A stretch of DNA of 52,288 nt from Corallococcus terminator. Its GTDB lineage: Bacteria > Myxococcota > Myxococcia > Myxococcales > Myxococcaceae. The notes under the pieces are model-generated. The model made no database searches. It had not been told where the DNA came from and was given only the letters and a program-made list of their open reading frames with translations. This document shows, in pieces, positions 45,614 to 52,288 of this stretch. The position numbers and the translations under genes were made by a program. Each line of letters opens with the position of its first letter. Position 1 is the first letter of the stretch. The stretch spans positions 1 to 52,288 of the forward strand of contig NZ_RAVZ01000016.1 in NCBI RefSeq assembly GCF_003611635.1. The letters run 5' to 3'.

Positions 45614-47413
45614 TCAGTCGCGCCCGGGGCCCGGGCTCCGGTCCGGCTTCGCGCGGGCGAGCGCTGCGTGGGCCCGGGACAGTGTGCCGTGCGGATCCTC
45701 TTCACCCTGCACCGTCACGGCGACGGAGACGCGCTCGGGCACGCCGGGCACATCGTGGAACTGCTGGCGCACCGCCTCCGCGCCCACCGCGTCCGCTCCG
45801 GGCAGCGCGAGCAGGAACGTGTCCCCGGTCCATCGCACCGCGAACCCCGGCGGGGGACACAGTCCGTCCGCGCGCCGGGCCAGCTCCCTCAGGGCGACAT
45901 CACCGGCGTCGAAGCCGCGCGTGCGGTTCAGCGCGCCCAGCTCCACCAGGTCCACCAGCACCAGGCTGAAGGGCAGGCCTTCACGGCGGCAGCGGCCAAT
46001 CTCCTTGGACAGCCGCTCCTCGCCCACGCGTCGGGTGTCCAGGCCGGTGAGCGCGTCCTGGCGCAGCAGGCCCTCGCGCTCCGCCTTCCCGTCGGAGCCG
46101 ACGCGCAGGTCCATCAGCGACAGCAGTTGCGCGACGCCACCGGGCACCACGAAGGGTCGCGCCACCCAGCGCACCACGCGCGGCCGGGGCCGCTCCAGCG
46201 TGAGCGTCAGGTGCAGTCCGCGCGAGGCCTCCGCCGCCAGGTCCAGTTGTCGCAGCGTGCCGCCTGGATCCGCGCTCAGGCTGGCCACGTGCTGGCACAG
46301 CGAATCGAAGGACATGCCCGACAGCCGCTCCTCGGGCAGCCCCATCAGCTCCGCGAGCGCCGCGTTGGCGGCGTAGGGCTTGCGGCCCGGCGCCACCACC
46401 AGCACCGGCACGTCCAGGGCGCGCGCCGCTTCACGCACCAGGGCCAGGGCGCTGGCCTCCGTGAGCACCGGTTCCGACTGGCTCCCCGTGCGCGACGGAG
46501 GCGTACGGGGCCGGTGGTTGGCCGTGGTGGACTCCAGGCTCTGCGCCACGCGGCCCGCGAGCTCGCGCAGCGCCGCGAGGTCCTCCGGGCCCAGCATCAA
46601 CGGCCGCGTGTCGATGACACACAGCGAGCCCAGCACGTCGCCACTGGCGGTGATGAGCGGGGCGCCCGCGTAGCTGCCGACGATGCCGTCGCGGACCAGC
46701 GGGTTGTCGCGGAACACCGGGTGGCGCGTGGCGTCCGGCACCACCATGGCCTCGCGGCCCTGCACCACGTGGTGGCAGAAGGCCCAGTCGCGCGGCGTGC
46801 CCCGGTCCCGGGCCAGCGACCCCGTGAGGCCCACGTGGGCCTTGAACCACTGGCGGTCGCCCAGCACCAGCGTGAGGAGCGCGACGGGGACGCCGAACGC
46901 CTGGGCCACTTCGGAGACCAGGTCCTGCAACCGCGCATCGGGCGGACCGGGATCCACCAGCTCCAGCTCATCGATGCGCGCCAGGCGCTGCTTCTCCTCC
47001 TCGGCGCTGGACTCCAGCAGACCGCCCCCGGCGAGCTGGCCCGCGAGCGCGCGTCGGACGCCGTCGCGCATCGCGTCCGGGCCCGCGCGCCGGCTCAGGA
47101 GCGCGTGGATGCCCAGCGCGTCCTTCAACTGCCACGCGCGCACGCGCAGTTCGTCGAAGGCAGTCACCACCACCACCGCCATGCCGCCCGCGTCCGAGCG
47201 TCCCCGCAGCCACGCCAGCAGCGCGAACCCGTCCACTCTCGGCAGCGCCAGGTCCGTCACCAGCAGCGTCGGGGCCCCGCGCTGCCGCACCCACTCCTGG
47301 GCCTCCGCGCCGTCGCGCGCGACCACGCCCTCCAGCCCTTCCTGGGTCGCGAGCGCGAGCAGCGCCGTGGCGCGGTGGGAGTCCGGTTCGGCGATGAGTG
47401 CGTAGCGCGGCAT
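45614..47413 (-). CDS. Receiver-GAF-PAS-GGDEF protein with a degenerate GGDEF motif
   Basis: The 599-residue protein begins with a receiver domain (ALIAEPDSHRATALLALA, phospho-acceptor in LLVTDLALPRVDG). It continues with a GAF domain (about 170-300; FCHHVVQGREAMVVPDATRH, GSYAGAPL), a PAS-like segment (about 320-430) and a GGDEF-type domain (DALTGLDTRRVGEERLSKEI). The catalytic signature reads RWTGDTFLLALPG instead of R-x-G-G-D/E-E-F, so both the GG pair and the metal-binding acidic residue are altered. Diguanylate cyclase activity is therefore doubtful; it may be a c-di-GMP or GTP sensor or scaffold. The ATG at 47413 starts the receiver; an extension to 47434 adds nothing conserved. Confidence 0.9.
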   Translation of the reverse strand: MPRYALIAEPDSHRATALLALATQEGLEGVVARDGAEAQEWVRQRGAPTLLVTDLALPRVDGFALLAWLRGRSDAGGMAVVVVTAFDELRVRAWQLKDALGIHALLSRRAGPDAMRDGVRRALAGQLAGGGLLESSAEEEKQRLARIDELELVDPGPPDARLQDLVSEVAQAFGVPVALLTLVLGDRQWFKAHVGLTGSLARDRGTPRDWAFCHHVVQGREAMVVPDATRHPVFRDNPLVRDGIVGSYAGAPLITASGDVLGSLCVIDTRPLMLGPEDLAALRELAGRVAQSLESTTANHRPRTPPSRTGSQSEPVLTEASALALVREAARALDVPVLVVAPGRKPYAANAALAELMGLPEERLSGMSFDSLCQHVASLSADPGGTLRQLDLAAEASRGLHLTLTLERPRPRVVRWVARPFVVPGGVAQLLSLMDLRVGSDGKAEREGLLRQDALTGLDTRRVGEERLSKEIGRCRREGLPFSLVLVDLVELGALNRTRGFDAGDVALRELARRADGLCPPPGFAVRWTGDTFLLALPGADAVGAEAVRQQFHDVPGVPERVSVAVTVQGEEDPHGTLSRAHAALARAKPDRSPGPGRD

Positions 47414-47608: not shown

Positions 47609-49063
47609 CTACCTCCGCGAATCCCCCGGGAGGGAGCGCGAGGACTCCTCGCCCTCGGCCACCTTCGTTCCACCCGGAGGCGGGACGGAGGCCTCGCTCG
47701 GGAAGCGTCCGAAGAGGCGCTTGAGGGCGCCGCGCTGCCTTTGCAGGTCCTCGGTGCGCGCCACCGACTCCGCGAGCGTCACCAGCGCGAGCCCGATGAC
47801 TCCGGGCAGCAGCGGCACCACCCAGCCGATGTCCGCCAGCAGCCAGCCCACGAAGGCCGTGTGCGCGACGAGGAGCAGCGCGGCCTGACCCACCACCGCG
47901 CCCATGGTTCGCGCGCGTCCCCGCCGCCACAGGAGCAGTGCCAGCACCAGCGCCGTCTCCAGTACGCCCGTGAGTGCCGCCCGCCCGGAGGAGCGCAGCA
48001 CGCGTCCGGAGCGCAGGTTGTCCATCGCGAACGCGTGGATCTCCACGCCCGGCACCGCGAGCTGGCCGGGCAGGGTGCTCTGGCCATGCAACCCGGTGGC
48101 GGTGACACCCACGAAGACGGCCTTGTCGCGCAGGGCCAGGTCCAGCCCCACCGAGGAGGGCCTCGCCAGCAGCACGTCCGCCAGGCTCACGCGAGGCAAC
48201 CAGTCTGGCGAAGGCAGCCGCATCAGGGGCGCCCCGTCGTCGGTGGACGCCACGCGCAATAGCGCTTCGGACCGCTCTGGCCACAGGCGCAGCGCGGTCG
48301 CCAGCGCGAGCGACGGCCACGCGCGCCCGCCCACCTCCACCGCGTAGGGGTAGCGCCGGATGACGCCGTCCGCGTCCACCAGCACGTTCAGCGTCCCACT
48401 GCCCCAGGCCGTCATCCGCAGCGGCGCCAGGTTCGTGGTCAGCCCCTTCGCCTTCAACCGCAGGCCTTCCGCGGGCAGGGCCACCGGGGCCAGGGTGTCC
48501 CCTTCGTGGGGAATCGAACCGCCCTCGTCCGTCAGCGCCATGCTGCCCAGGACGACGGTGCCCATCCCGGAGAAGGTCTCCGCGAGCCGAGCATCCCCGT
48601 CCTGTGCATGCATCCGCGCTTCCAGCTCGGAGACCAGCTTCGAGCCCTCGGGCAGATCCGCGAGCCCCGACGTGCGCAGGCGCTCCAGCACGTCCTCGCC
48701 CAGGTCCAGCGCGTCGCGCGACTCGGGTTGGTCGAAGAGGATGTCCACCACCACCGCGGAGGGGCGCTGCGCCGCCAGCGCCTGGAAGGCCCGGGCCCAG
48801 GTGGCGCGCGACAGCGGCCAGCGCTCGCCCAGCGCCGCGAGCGCGCGGTCGTCCACCTCCACCAGCACCAGGTCCGCCGTGGTGGGCAGGGGCGACAACA
48901 GGCGGCTCACCGCGAAGTCATACAGGGCGCGCTCGCCCAGGCCGGGCGCGCCACCCATCACCGCCGAGCCCACCGCGAGCAGCAGGCCTACGCCAGCCCC
49001 CAGTCCCCGCAGCACCGCGGGAGAGGACAGCAGGGGCAGGGGACCTCGGGCAGGTGGGCTCAT
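47609..49063 (-). CDS. CHASE2-domain membrane protein without an enzymatic output domain
   Basis: The 484-residue protein has an N-terminal transmembrane helix and a periplasmic CHASE2 domain (LYDFAVSRLLSP, DDRALAALGERWPLSR, AVVVDILFDQPES, VDADGVIRRYPY, VFVGVTATGLH). Three closely spaced helices follow at about residues 365-445. CHASE2 normally feeds an adenylate cyclase, GGDEF or kinase domain; here only a ~45-residue charged tail (RTEDLQRQRGALKRLFGRFP onward) follows. It may signal through a partner. It starts 2 bp beyond the FecR stop, at the end of the OmpA-FecR-CHASE2 operon. Confidence 0.9.
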   Translation of the reverse strand: MSPPARGPLPLLSSPAVLRGLGAGVGLLLAVGSAVMGGAPGLGERALYDFAVSRLLSPLPTTADLVLVEVDDRALAALGERWPLSRATWARAFQALAAQRPSAVVVDILFDQPESRDALDLGEDVLERLRTSGLADLPEGSKLVSELEARMHAQDGDARLAETFSGMGTVVLGSMALTDEGGSIPHEGDTLAPVALPAEGLRLKAKGLTTNLAPLRMTAWGSGTLNVLVDADGVIRRYPYAVEVGGRAWPSLALATALRLWPERSEALLRVASTDDGAPLMRLPSPDWLPRVSLADVLLARPSSVGLDLALRDKAVFVGVTATGLHGQSTLPGQLAVPGVEIHAFAMDNLRSGRVLRSSGRAALTGVLETALVLALLLWRRGRARTMGAVVGQAALLLVAHTAFVGWLLADIGWVVPLLPGVIGLALVTLAESVARTEDLQRQRGALKRLFGRFPSEASVPPPGGTKVAEGEESSRSLPGDSRR

Positions 49064-49064
49064 C

Positions 49065-50243
49065 TCATCCAGGGATGTCGAAGCTGAAGATCTTCGAGGG
49101 GTAGCCTACGAAGCCGTCCGCGTCCACCGCCAGCACCCGCCAGAACCATTTGCCCGGGCCCGGCGCCGCCCCGGCCAACGTCGGCGTGGCCGACTCCTGG
49201 ACCCTCACGTCGCCCGCGAAGTCCGCCGAGGACGCCACCTCCACCCGGTAGACCTTCGCCCCGGCGACCGCCTTCCAGACGAGCGCGGGCACCGTCGGGT
49301 ACACGCCCCCGCGAGGCTGCTCCAGCGTCGGGGCCGCCAGCAGGGCCCGGGGCGCTTCCGGCGGCTGGGCAGGCTTCGCCCGCGAACCGTAGCCCGCGCC
49401 CACGTCCACCGACGCCGCGTCCACGCCCAGGGCCACCTTGCCCTCCAGCGTCTCCACGCGACTGGTGCCGTCCTCCTGCTGCACCACGCGGAAGCGCGTG
49501 CCCCGCACGCCGGCCACCGCGCCGCGCGTGCGCACCTCGAAGACGGAGCCCCGGCCTCCGGGCGCCGCCTCTGTCTCCACCGTGCCGCGCACCAGGTCCA
49601 ACAGCACCTTGCGCTGGCGCTCCGCCGTCAACTCCAGCGTGCCCAGCCGCACCGCGCTCTCCGGCGACAGGAACACGCCGCTGCCGTCCGCCAGCGCCAG
49701 CTCCGCGCGGCCGTTCTTCCCCGTCGTCACGAGCTCGCCCGCGTACAGCGAGTCACCCGCGAGGCGAGAGCGCAGCGCCGTGTCCCCCGGTCCCGCCGAC
49801 ACCTGTCCACTGGCCGTGCGCAGCCTCGCCACCGCCGGCTGGGTGGGGCGCTCCACGTACGCGAGCTGCAACTGGCCCGGCGCGTTGGGGATGCCCGGGG
49901 GCGCCACGAAGGACACCCGCGTGCGCGGAATCCCCGCCGTCACCAGCACCTCCGCCGCCGCCTTCGCCCAGGCGAGCCCCTGACCCTCCAGGCGCTGCGC
50001 GTCCGGCAGCTTCGCGGCCACGGTGAGGCTCCGGATGGCGGGACGGGCCTTCACGGCCTCCGCCACCTCGCGCAGGCACGCCTCGGTCTGGGCGCCCTGG
50101 GGCTCCAGGATGCGCCCCGTCACGAGCCGCCCGTTGTCGAACCTCAGGCCCCCGCAGGGGCCGTCCGCCTCCGCGGCGAAGCCCACGACGGGGGACGCCA
50201 ACAGCGTCAGGGTCAGCATCAACGACGGGGTGCTTGCCCTCAC
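49065..50243 (-). CDS. FecR-domain periplasmic protein
   Basis: The 392-residue protein has a signal peptide (residues 1-24). An alpha/beta segment (about 40-120) loosely resembles an OmpA-type domain (IRSLTVAAKLPD, GLAWAKAAAEVLVTAGIP), and then comes a FecR beta-roll (about 160-275; TGKNGRAELALADGSGVFLS, GSVFEVRTRGAVAGVRGTRF). A fibronectin-like C-terminal domain follows (PALVWKAVAGAKVYRVEV, WFWRVLAVDADG). FecR domains relay outer-membrane signals or bind cell-wall components. The GTG start at 50243 overlaps the upstream stop as GTGA. Between an OmpA-like protein and a CHASE2 protein it could be the periplasmic link. Confidence 0.88.
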   Translation of the reverse strand: MRASTPSLMLTLTLLASPVVGFAAEADGPCGGLRFDNGRLVTGRILEPQGAQTEACLREVAEAVKARPAIRSLTVAAKLPDAQRLEGQGLAWAKAAAEVLVTAGIPRTRVSFVAPPGIPNAPGQLQLAYVERPTQPAVARLRTASGQVSAGPGDTALRSRLAGDSLYAGELVTTGKNGRAELALADGSGVFLSPESAVRLGTLELTAERQRKVLLDLVRGTVETEAAPGGRGSVFEVRTRGAVAGVRGTRFRVVQQEDGTSRVETLEGKVALGVDAASVDVGAGYGSRAKPAQPPEAPRALLAAPTLEQPRGGVYPTVPALVWKAVAGAKVYRVEVASSADFAGDVRVQESATPTLAGAAPGPGKWFWRVLAVDADGFVGYPSKIFSFDIPG

Positions 50244-52030
50244 GGCGCCACTCCTTCCGCCGTGTCGGCGGTCTTCACGATGTTGAATTCCACGCGCCGG
50301 TTGTTCTCCCGGCCGAGCGGCGTGTCATTGGTGTCCACCGGCTTCGACTCACCGAAGCCCACCGCCTCCAGGCGCATGCCGGAGATGCCGCCCTTCATCA
50401 GCCAGTCGCGCACGTTGTTCGCGCGCCGCTGCGACAGGTCCAGGTTCTTCGCGTCGTCGCCCTGGCTGTCGGTGTGGCCTTCCACACGCACCCGCTCCAG
50501 CTCCGGATGCGTCCGGAGGATGGACACCACCTGCTGCAACAGCGGGAAGGACTTCGGCAGGATGACGTCCTTGCCGGTGGCGAAGTACACCTTGTCCAGG
50601 ATGACGATGCGCGAGCCTTCCAGGCGCACCTTGGACTCGCCCTTGTCCGGGCACCCGTCGTCGTCCTTCACGCCGTTGATGACCTCCGCCTCCAGCGGGC
50701 ATTGATCCTTCGCGTCCGGGATGCCGTCGCGGTCGTTGTCCGGATCCGGGCAACCGTCCTCGTCCTCGAAGCCATCCACGTCCTCCGGCGCCGTCGGGCA
50801 GCGGTCCTCCGTGTCCGGAATGCCATCGCCATCCGTATCCACGGGCGCGGGCGGCAGGCTGAGCGCGGGCGGGGGCGCGTTCGCGGGCGTGGCGGCATCC
50901 TCCGGGGCCTTCACCTCCGGCAGCGAGTCCGGGCAGCCGTCGTCGTCGCGGTAGCCGTTCACCGTCTCCGGATCCATGGGGCAGACATCGTTCACGTCGG
51001 GGATGCCGTCGCGGTCGTCGTCGGGATCCAGGCAGCCGTCGTCGTCCTGGAAGCCGTCGAAATCTTCCGGGCCCAGCGCGCAGGTGGGCGCGGGCTTTGG
51101 GCCTCCGGGCGTGAAGGTCAGCCCCGCGAGGATGCGGAAGGCGGGCGTGCCGTAGCCGCGCGTCAGGCCAGGGCCGGCGCCCACATGCGCGGCGAACCCG
51201 TTGGCGAAGCGGTACTTCACCGCGCCCAGGACCTCCAGGGGGACCTCCTCCGTGTTGGACTCCTTCAGGCCCACCGCGCCCGCGAGCGTGGCCTGGGCGG
51301 ACAGCGCCTGTGTCACCGGCACCTCCGCGCCCACGCCGAACGCGAACTCGTTGCCCACGCGCAGGTTGCGAAGCTGTTCCGTCTGACGAAGGTTGACGCC
51401 CACGTTGGCGAGCAGCCGCAGATGGGATGTGGCCCACTCACCGGCGATGCGCGGCTGGAAGGTGAGCCCGTCCGAGCCCAGGAAGTTCGAACCGCCCGCC
51501 GTGGGCAGGGTGAAGGGTGCCAGCACCGCGAGGTTCAGCGAGCCCCGCGACAGCAGCGCCAGCTTGGGCACCACGCGCAGGTCGCCCAGGCCCGTCTTGC
51601 CCACGCCGTTGGCGAACGACTCCGACACGGCGCCCGCGGGCTCCGAACCCGTGGTCGTCACCGGCAGCACCACGCCGATCTCCAACCGGTCGAAGAGGGA
51701 CACCGCGCCCATCAGGTCCAGGGAGAGCTGCCGCTCCACGATGTGGTAGACGAACGCGTCCTCGCGAGGGTCGTAGAAGTTGAGCGGCTGGTGCGCGTAG
51801 TTGAGCGACGCGCCCACGTTCCACGTCTTGTGCGGCGCGACGCGCGCGCTGTTCAGCCCGAGCACGTCGTAGGCACCCGGCCCCGGCTTGTACTGCTGCA
51901 CGTCGATGGCCTGCGACACCGTGGGCTGCGCGTCCGCCCGCGACGCCGCGCCCAGCGCCAGGCCCACCGCCACCATCAGTGCCAGGCCTGGGCCCGGAAG
52001 GGCAGGGCGCCGCTGTCCGAGGGACGGCAT
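50240..52030 (-). CDS. OmpA-family outer-membrane protein with TSP type-3 repeats
   Basis: Starting at the ATG at 52030 gives a normal signal peptide (ending ADAQ). It is followed by a beta-barrel-like region with alternating hydrophobic strands (about residues 50-300) and a calcium-binding thrombospondin type-3 repeat region. That region contains DDDRDGIPDVNDVCP, DTDGDGIPDTEDRCP and DNDRDGIPDAKDQCP separated by a Pro/Ala-rich linker. A C-terminal OmpA domain carries the peptidoglycan-binding motif VRVEGHTDSQGDD and LSQRRANNVRDWL. It probably bridges the outer membrane and the cell wall. The frame stays open upstream to the window edge; longer starts at 52117 or beyond would give an atypically long n-region, so the 5' end is uncertain. 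Confidence 0.88.
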   Translation of the reverse strand: MPSLGQRRPALPGPGLALMVAVGLALGAASRADAQPTVSQAIDVQQYKPGPGAYDVLGLNSARVAPHKTWNVGASLNYAHQPLNFYDPREDAFVYHIVERQLSLDLMGAVSLFDRLEIGVVLPVTTTGSEPAGAVSESFANGVGKTGLGDLRVVPKLALLSRGSLNLAVLAPFTLPTAGGSNFLGSDGLTFQPRIAGEWATSHLRLLANVGVNLRQTEQLRNLRVGNEFAFGVGAEVPVTQALSAQATLAGAVGLKESNTEEVPLEVLGAVKYRFANGFAAHVGAGPGLTRGYGTPAFRILAGLTFTPGGPKPAPTCALGPEDFDGFQDDDGCLDPDDDRDGIPDVNDVCPMDPETVNGYRDDDGCPDSLPEVKAPEDAATPANAPPPALSLPPAPVDTDGDGIPDTEDRCPTAPEDVDGFEDEDGCPDPDNDRDGIPDAKDQCPLEAEVINGVKDDDGCPDKGESKVRLEGSRIVILDKVYFATGKDVILPKSFPLLQQVVSILRTHPELERVRVEGHTDSQGDDAKNLDLSQRRANNVRDWLMKGGISGMRLEAVGFGESKPVDTNDTPLGRENNRRVEFNIVKTADTAEGVAP

Positions 52031-52288
52031 GGCCCGCGGACGCAGGTCGCGGTCTTTCCCCGTCGAGCCACCCGGAGGGGACACGGAGGCGTCGAGCGGC
52101 CCGGTGCCGCGCTTCATGTCGATGCCGCCGCGGACTCCGCCCTGCTCGCTGTCCATGTGATTCGGATCCGTTTCGTTCGTGTCGCGCGCGCCATGGGCGT
52201 TCGCGTCCAGCTCGCCGTCCAGGTGGCCGCCATTGTCGCTGTCGGGGTCGCGCGCGACACGAACGAAACGGATCCGAATCACATGGAC
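52031..52288. other. Upstream region of the OmpA-like gene with a large inverted repeat
   Basis: In-frame with the OmpA-like gene, this 258-bp stretch is open but encodes an acidic, low-complexity segment without recognisable structure, so it is treated as upstream DNA or a possible N-terminal extension. It contains the 40-bp inverted repeat described separately. Confidence 0.4.
52151..52288. repeat. Perfect 40-bp inverted repeat with a 58-bp spacer
   Basis: Bases 52151-52190 are exactly complementary to 52249-52288, spacer 52191-52248. The arms include GGATCCG and CGTTTCGTTCGTG and are less GC-rich than the surroundings. The repeat reaches the last base of the window and may continue beyond it. 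It could be a biological hairpin or an end-of-contig artefact. Confidence 0.9.

Follow-up and report, generated by a model that had tools for sequence, protein, structure and literature searches.

What a CHASE2 membrane protein can do without an enzyme attached to it is the question raised by three genes of the myxobacterium Corallococcus terminator. The window considered here is one whole Corallococcus contig (NZ_RAVZ01000016.1, 52,288 nucleotides), with named relatives such as C. praedator (94%) pointing to this genus, and on its minus strand the genes for an OmpA-family protein with TSP3-type repeats, a FecR-domain protein and a CHASE2 protein lie contiguously (Table 1). Behind it stands the wider question of which stimuli CHASE2 domains detect and by what means outer-membrane proteins communicate with them. 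The explanation that we favour, and to which we give about an even chance, is that the trio is a receptor-only module across the envelope, descended from an operon of OmpA, FecR and CHASE2-nucleotide cyclase genes and acting on a separate partner.

Conservation of the trio

An earlier note on this DNA, made from the letters alone, described the three genes as overlapping or nearly touching. This is indeed the case: the GTG start of the FecR gene overlaps the stop codon of the OmpA gene, and a single base separates the FecR stop codon from the ATG of the CHASE2 gene. A CHASE2 orthologue (E up to 1e-20) is found in 43 of the 96 genomes of the family that were compared, the one of the window being counted among them, namely in 14 of the 16 genomes of the window's genus, in both genomes of genus g25 and in all 27 of genus g37, and in none of the 51 elsewhere. 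A named locus of Myxococcus sp. CA023, at 66% identity, suggests that g37 is Myxococcus. Orthologues of all three genes are held by 43 of the 96 genomes, and the conservation of gene order in myxobacteria that the note had proposed as a check is borne out, with the same order and strand in all 43 genomes that have a CHASE2 orthologue. The best FecR and OmpA matches adjoin the CHASE2 gene throughout, with two exceptions: in G073 a 24-kb insertion lies between the FecR and CHASE2 genes, which are adjacent in the other 42 genomes, and a contig end interrupts the OmpA gene of G003. All 26 trio genomes read in detail besides the window have the order OmpA, FecR, CHASE2 and then a GGDEF-family gene, G073 in two pieces. 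A lack of co-occurrence in other genomes, which the note had named as the result that would count against it, is therefore not what is found.

The two Corallococcus genomes without the trio, G010 and G008, both carry deletions at this place. Relative to the reference G004, the deletion in G010 begins some 240 bases ahead of the OmpA start and stops roughly 35 bases short of the end of the CHASE2 gene, with the GGDEF gene left whole; the deletion in G008 is larger and has also removed most of the GGDEF gene. The breakpoints differ, so that one deletion event cannot be distinguished from two. Among 13 Corallococcus genomes, the median pairwise ratio of nonsynonymous to synonymous substitution rates (dN/dS), obtained by a simple counting method with codon bias uncorrected, is 0.42 for each of OmpA, FecR and CHASE2 and 0.32 for the GGDEF protein. 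On sequence evidence, the trio genes are inherited as a unit, and the predicted placement of their products in the outer membrane, the periplasm and the inner membrane is supported.

Loss of the cyclase

Membership of the CHASE2 family (PF05226) is clear, with an E value of 2.8e-42 and 145.5 bits against a gathering threshold of 26.3. According to hydropathy, one helix precedes the periplasmic domain and three follow it, after which 54 residues remain. No catalytic Pfam match lies behind the last helix of the window protein, which sets it apart from CHASE2-linked cyclases and kinases; the short cytosolic tail without enzymatic output that had been proposed is thus confirmed.

Thirteen genomes from other genera of this family (L138-L150) likewise have a FecR gene followed by a gene for a CHASE2 protein. 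Of these proteins, 12 give a match to the CHASE2 model and also to that of class III cyclases, the remaining one (L145) ending at a contig end. An OmpA gene precedes the FecR gene in 12 of the 13, L150 being cut, and the FecR proteins are 34-40% identical to that of the window where they are full length, with the same domain order. The catalytic stretch, as read in 11 of these cyclases, has kept the metal aspartates and the N/R pair; E and S/A occupy what we take to be the positions of the usual K and D, so that the substrate is uncertain. In the same 11 readings a similar unnamed stretch of at least about 60 residues lies beyond the cyclase.

A FecR profile matched 61 of 195 Myxococcota genomes, those outside the family being G170 and, more weakly, G124. 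G170, from another family of the Myxococcota, has an OmpA-FecR-CHASE2 operon (L221) in which the CHASE2 protein carries a cyclase domain whose motifs look intact. In a tree of 55 rows this protein is sister to the clade of truncated proteins, with support of 100/99, and the family's own cyclase-type CHASE2 proteins are placed elsewhere. In a tree without G170, a single clade of the truncated set and the family's cyclase-type proteins was neither shown nor rejected (approximately unbiased test, p 0.31). The truncated proteins end 2 to about 34 residues past an LFxRxP motif; in alignments this motif falls on the linker that precedes the cyclase in relatives (LFGRFP against FGRYLTEQVV or FSHYVAPEVV).

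By these comparisons the truncated CHASE2 proteins form a single clade, and the protein closest to it in the set is a CHASE2-cyclase. It follows most simply that the cyclase was lost once, before Corallococcus, Myxococcus and the third genus split; what was left of the operon remained under purifying selection. A gene truncated from a longer cyclase gene had been named in advance as grounds for giving up the idea of an output-less operon. In evolution this is what the gene is, but it is not a broken copy: as judged from its sequence, the gene was truncated long ago, the truncated form is fixed, and purifying selection acts on it. A recent pseudogene is ruled out, as the frames are kept in 43 genomes and constrained. 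As regards other output-less CHASE2 proteins in the family, for which the search was not exhaustive, a candidate of 554 residues (G105, C415) was rejected, being cut by a contig end and running, by eye, into cyclase-like sequence; a CHASE2 frame of 430 residues (G021, C145) was also met.

The proteins of the trio

Table 1. Positions of the trio, its parts and the adjoining frames in the window
Feature	Position	Strand	Basis
OmpA-family outer-membrane protein, 596 residues	50240..52030	minus	Pfam; peptidoglycan pattern; conserved next to FecR
Presumed beta-barrel of OmpA	~51086-51928	minus	kinship with TraB/MXAN_5598; sub-threshold barrel-family match in the G170 relative
Three TSP3-type D-rich repeats	~50621-51058	minus	DGxxD pattern
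OmpA peptidoglycan-binding domain	50297-50587	minus	Pfam OmpA
Presumed periplasmic FecR-domain protein, 392 residues	49065..50243	minus	Pfam; alignment of 16; AlphaFold (partial confidence); Fn3 match
N-domain of FecR protein, with conserved Cys30 and Cys56	49851-50171	minus	alignment of 16
FecR domain	49434-49730	minus	Pfam
Fibronectin-III-like C-domain of FecR protein	49068-49346	minus	Fn3 match, Z 11.2
CHASE2 protein without output domain, 484 residues	47609..49063	minus	Pfam PF05226; hydropathy; tree
Periplasmic CHASE2 domain	47927-48937	minus	Pfam
Most conserved CHASE2 stretch, residues 316-346, candidate contact or ligand site	48026..48118	minus	lowest pN/pS (ratio of nonsynonymous to synonymous polymorphism); highest-identity windows
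Proximal cytosolic tail, residues 431-456, remnant of the cyclase linker of relatives	47696..47773	minus	alignments
REC-GAF-PAS-GGDEF protein, degenerate active site (TGDTF for GGDEF/GGEEF)	45614..47413	minus	Pfam; neighbourhood; motif comparison
Open frame upstream of OmpA to contig end; D-rich stretch resembling the adhesin end of relatives	52031..52288	minus	relatives' fusions

Within the CHASE2 protein, constraint is strongest in the stretch of residues 316-346, average to fairly good in the proximal tail, and the distal tail is nearly free. A special conservation of the tail, suggested at first by a dN/dS of 0.15 in Corallococcus, was given up since it was not exceptional in wider tests. 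The AlphaFold model (mean predicted local distance difference test score, pLDDT, of 41) was not used, and a search of the Protein Data Bank (PDB) with the CHASE2 sequence gave nothing convincing (best E 0.46). A CHASE2 protein of M. xanthus, WP_011554259.1, appears in the excerpt of PMC9257966 and may or may not be that of the trio.

The FecR protein matches the Pfam FecR domain (1.5e-18) and has one signal-like hydrophobic segment in its hydropathy profile; both cysteines of its N-domain are present in all 16 proteins aligned. It does not qualify as a classical FecR sigma regulator, as it scores 22 bits against the 385 of the NCBIfam equivalog and has no hydrophobic segment besides the signal-like one. 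The OmpA-like segment that the note had seen in it is weakly supported. The predicted strand-helix order of the N-domain resembles what we take to be that of OmpA (AlphaFold, partly confident), and a profile comparison with OmpA by hhalign is weak (probability 10, E 0.003, score 23.6), with control scores no higher than 20.8 (40 column shuffles) and 13.7 (six other domains). A Pfam OmpA match occurs in one of the 16 proteins, and weakly (E 0.22). OmpA is absent among the matches listed in the structure searches; these were filled by the fibronectin-III domain, so that they did not test the N-domain by its fold. A PDB sequence search gave one weak match, to an antifreeze protein (E 0.0027).

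The OmpA protein has a Pfam OmpA match of 4.6e-23 and one signal-like segment by hydropathy. The motif HTD ... LSxxR, which we take to be the peptidoglycan-binding pattern of OmpA, is kept in 39 of 39 sequences, in agreement with the earlier prediction of a peptidoglycan-binding outer-membrane protein. The calcium-binding TSP3 repeats predicted alongside it are less certain: the D-rich DGxxD pattern is present in three copies, but the Pfam TSP_3 match stays under its cut-off (9.7e-5, 22.4 bits against 25).

Kinship with surface adhesins

The OmpA protein is not TraB itself, as it reaches 268.7 bits against a cut-off of 700 for NF033763 and the genome's own TraB lies elsewhere, with 1006 bits. 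Its barrel and OmpA part are 63% identical to a paralogue in the same genome, with which it also groups in the tree (joint group 86/89, not starred). The paralogue belongs to a frame of 2704 codons that contains Ig-like repeats and matches the model of the AgmC N-domain over its cut-off, and it adjoins a frame with an FtsZ signature. These properties fit the description of MXAN_5598 in the excerpt of PMC11980579. A literature search combining AgmC, Myxococcus xanthus and gliding found no publication. By sequence kinship, the trio OmpA is a relative of MXAN_5598 and, more distantly, of TraB.

In six Corallococcus genomes (G001, G003, G006, G011, G012 and G013) the trio OmpA itself lies inside a frame of 2740-3356 codons. 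The five of these frames that were read (L251-L255, from G006, G013, G011, G012 and G001) are adhesin-like, without a stop into OmpA, and have a third-position GC content of at least 0.85 in every block; the Ig-like repeats were scanned in one of them, L251. The upstream repeat part comprises about 2100-2700 codons and finishes with TSP3 repeats and an internal MYXO-CTERM-like tag. The tag was identified by eye, the NCBIfam MYXO-CTERM model not being among the best 25 families listed for the two giant frames scanned. The layout resembles TraA and TraB joined in one frame.

The window contig ends just upstream of OmpA and cuts the frame there. A perfect 40-base inverted repeat (52151-52190 and 52249-52288) stands at the contig end and is probably an assembly artefact, which makes the last stretch in Table 1 unreliable. 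In G004 a WD40-looking gene upstream of the trio contains 14.7 copies of a 126-base tandem repeat (L116 823-2676).

The GGDEF-family neighbour

A GGDEF-family gene follows the CHASE2 gene on the same strand, within 4 kb, in all 43 genomes, the copy in G015 being split over two contigs. The distance is about 200 bases or less in 39 of them and 2.5-3.9 kb in G001, G082, G086 and G094, and no promoter or terminator pattern was found between the two genes. In four genomes the gap differs (L126 10101-12542, L244 2886-5696, L245 3071-6595 and L117 9835-13209) and contains, among others, a SIR2-protein kinase fusion and, by eye, an NTPase/TPR-looking protein and ketosynthase-like and nuclease-like frames; perhaps it is an insertion hotspot.

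The GG(D/E)EF motif is lost in all 26 neighbour orthologues (TGDT, EGG or EGS forms), so that the neighbour does not pass as a diguanylate cyclase and cannot be taken as an enzymatic partner. In its REC domain the aspartate and threonine are kept in 26 of 26, with an arginine in place of the usual lysine. The earlier suggestion that this protein might be the signalling partner of the trio holds as far as its constant presence is concerned, but its active site is lost and it is kept without the trio in G010. A homologue with an intact GGEEF and RxxD site occurs in G039, a genome without the trio (L226 6531-8672), and three relatives from genera g26 and g27 stop behind the PAS region, as scanned by Pfam in one of them. 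On length alone, MXAN4257 (given as 595 in the PMC4877007 strain list) might correspond to the GGDEF neighbour of 594 residues. In the excerpt of that source, it is not among the 4 of 24 genes whose loss affected development.

A proposed receptor without an enzyme

In the receptor-only module that we favour, OmpA, with its barrel, D-rich repeats and grip on peptidoglycan, would report the state of the surface or the cell wall to the periplasmic FecR protein, which in turn would act on the periplasmic CHASE2 domain. The signal would cross the inner membrane through a shift of the four helices and of the short helix that follows them. As no cyclase is left, this cytosolic helix would have to touch a separate partner in order to influence it. 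Foremost among the candidates is the REC-GAF-PAS-pseudo-GGDEF protein encoded next to the trio, in that case a non-catalytic adaptor itself; its constant proximity to CHASE2 and the invariant REC aspartate argue for it. More tentatively, and with the chances against it, the trio and its neighbour may be a conserved signalling complex that has shed both nucleotide-cyclase outputs, the class III cyclase of CHASE2 and the diguanylate cyclase site of the neighbour, and passes contact or envelope information through every layer by protein contact alone, its surface end being derived from adhesins of the TraAB/MXAN_5598 type.

Several observations weigh against the favoured explanation. G170 is a genome of 69% completeness, and a long branch (1.68) leads to its CHASE2 protein in the tree. 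The fetched stretches of G124 contain two weaker OmpA-FecR pairs without a nearby CHASE2 match. The conservation of the CHASE2 tail is unexceptional: over 27 sequences, 266 of 459 windows equal or exceed it in conservation, and a pN/pS as low as that of the tail is found in 54 of 459 windows in Corallococcus, 147 in g37 and 220 in all. The trio OmpA is not grouped with the OmpA proteins of the cyclase-type operons or of G170, and its grouping with the MXAN_5598-type paralogue suggests that the outer-membrane part of the trio may have been exchanged. With regard to the candidate partner, the GGDEF gene starts about 195 bases after CHASE2 in the window, other genes lie between the two in 4 of the 43 genomes, and the gene persists in G010, where its dN/dS against others (0.29-0.45; 0.28-0.46 for a trio-bearing relative) shows no clear rise, which argues for a role without the trio. 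In Sinorhizobium meliloti, moreover, the FecR gene smc02177 is needed for infection control and not for perceiving the tested signal, according to the excerpt of PMC5498481.

A structural role is an unlikely alternative; in this case the trio would pass no signal and be a mere tether of outer membrane and peptidoglycan to the inner membrane, or the support of an adhesin. No catalytic domain is left in CHASE2 or its GGDEF neighbour, the peptidoglycan pattern is kept in all 39 OmpA sequences, and this protein is related to fusions of adhesin, barrel and OmpA like MXAN_5598, being part of a giant frame in six Corallococcus genomes, which in five was read as an Ig-like adhesin. By itself, however, a tether leaves unexplained why CHASE2 residues 316-346 are near-invariant, why a remnant of the linker persists and why a signalling-type gene is the constant neighbour.

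It is quite unlikely that the truncated CHASE2 protein is a regulatory subunit, joined by its helices and linker to full-length CHASE2 cyclases of the same cell, whose activity it would reduce or retune. Two catalytic domains are required in a class III cyclase, so that such pairing could have this effect; the linker remnant stands directly before the missing catalytic domain, the window's own genome has two other CHASE2 proteins, each carrying a cyclase domain, and at least two further CHASE2 matches are present in each of the 43 trio genomes (outputs checked for part). The truncated clade is, however, far from these paralogues in the tree.

That the operon is a decaying remnant, on its way out after the loss of its output, is very improbable and mostly refuted already: the trio is missing from 2 of the 16 Corallococcus genomes, in one of them together with most of the GGDEF gene, but frames and order are kept in 43 genomes of three genera and CHASE2 has a median dN/dS no higher than OmpA or FecR, about 0.42 in all three.

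If the receptor-only explanation is right, the persistence of a receptor half without its enzyme in 43 genomes means that sensing has been separated from output, which offers a clean object of study in Myxococcus. Furthermore, the FecR-CHASE2 module would be connected with the OmpA protein that partners surface adhesins in myxobacteria, and a second-messenger receptor free of its enzyme becomes directly testable.

Comparison with known systems

The systems below are compared as far as the excerpts of the cited sources describe them; those of Burkholderia and S. meliloti serve as precedents for the receptor-only explanation. The window has the arrangement of the FecR-CHASE2 operons of the BiofilmReg type, a FecR-domain gene directly followed by a CHASE2 gene, and lacks, by the absence of LysM and kinase matches in its proteins, the LysM and histidine kinase of that system. 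The Burkholderia operon of LysM-FecR and CHASE2-kinase genes was found through a strain without biofilm in which its response-regulator gene was interrupted (PMC5192318). Like the trio, the BiofilmReg operon and the PA4035-type FecR proteins combine a periplasmic, wall-binding FecR-domain protein with a CHASE2 membrane protein; unlike it, BiofilmReg has LysM in the FecR protein, a CHASE2 protein with histidine kinase and its own response regulator, and no OmpA among the components described (PMC5192318).

In S. meliloti, the outer-membrane protein NsrA is required upstream of the CHASE2 cyclases CyaK and CyaD1/D2 (PMC7529298, PMC13001267), and smc02177 lies near cyaD1 (PMC5498481). Here too, an outer-membrane beta-barrel signals through CHASE2 proteins of the inner membrane, which, in contrast to that of the trio, are adenylate/guanylate cyclases (PMC7529298, PMC5498481, PMC13001267). 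MXAN_5598 and TraA/TraB share with the trio an OmpA protein with beta-barrel and peptidoglycan-binding domain and, in related Corallococcus genomes, an OmpA fused in frame to an adhesin, with a MYXO-CTERM-like tag inside; no FecR and CHASE2 neighbours are described for them in these excerpts (PMC11980579, PMC3325183). The OmpA-FecR-CHASE2-cyclase operons of other Myxococcota (L138-L150, L221) have the same gene order and a FecR protein homologous from end to end, whereas their OmpA proteins are of about 900 residues, with 7-8 DGxxD repeats (in nine long frames), and their CHASE2 proteins end in a class III cyclase. Taken together, the trio best fits a variant of the known FecR-CHASE2 / NsrA-CHASE2 kind, without output domain.

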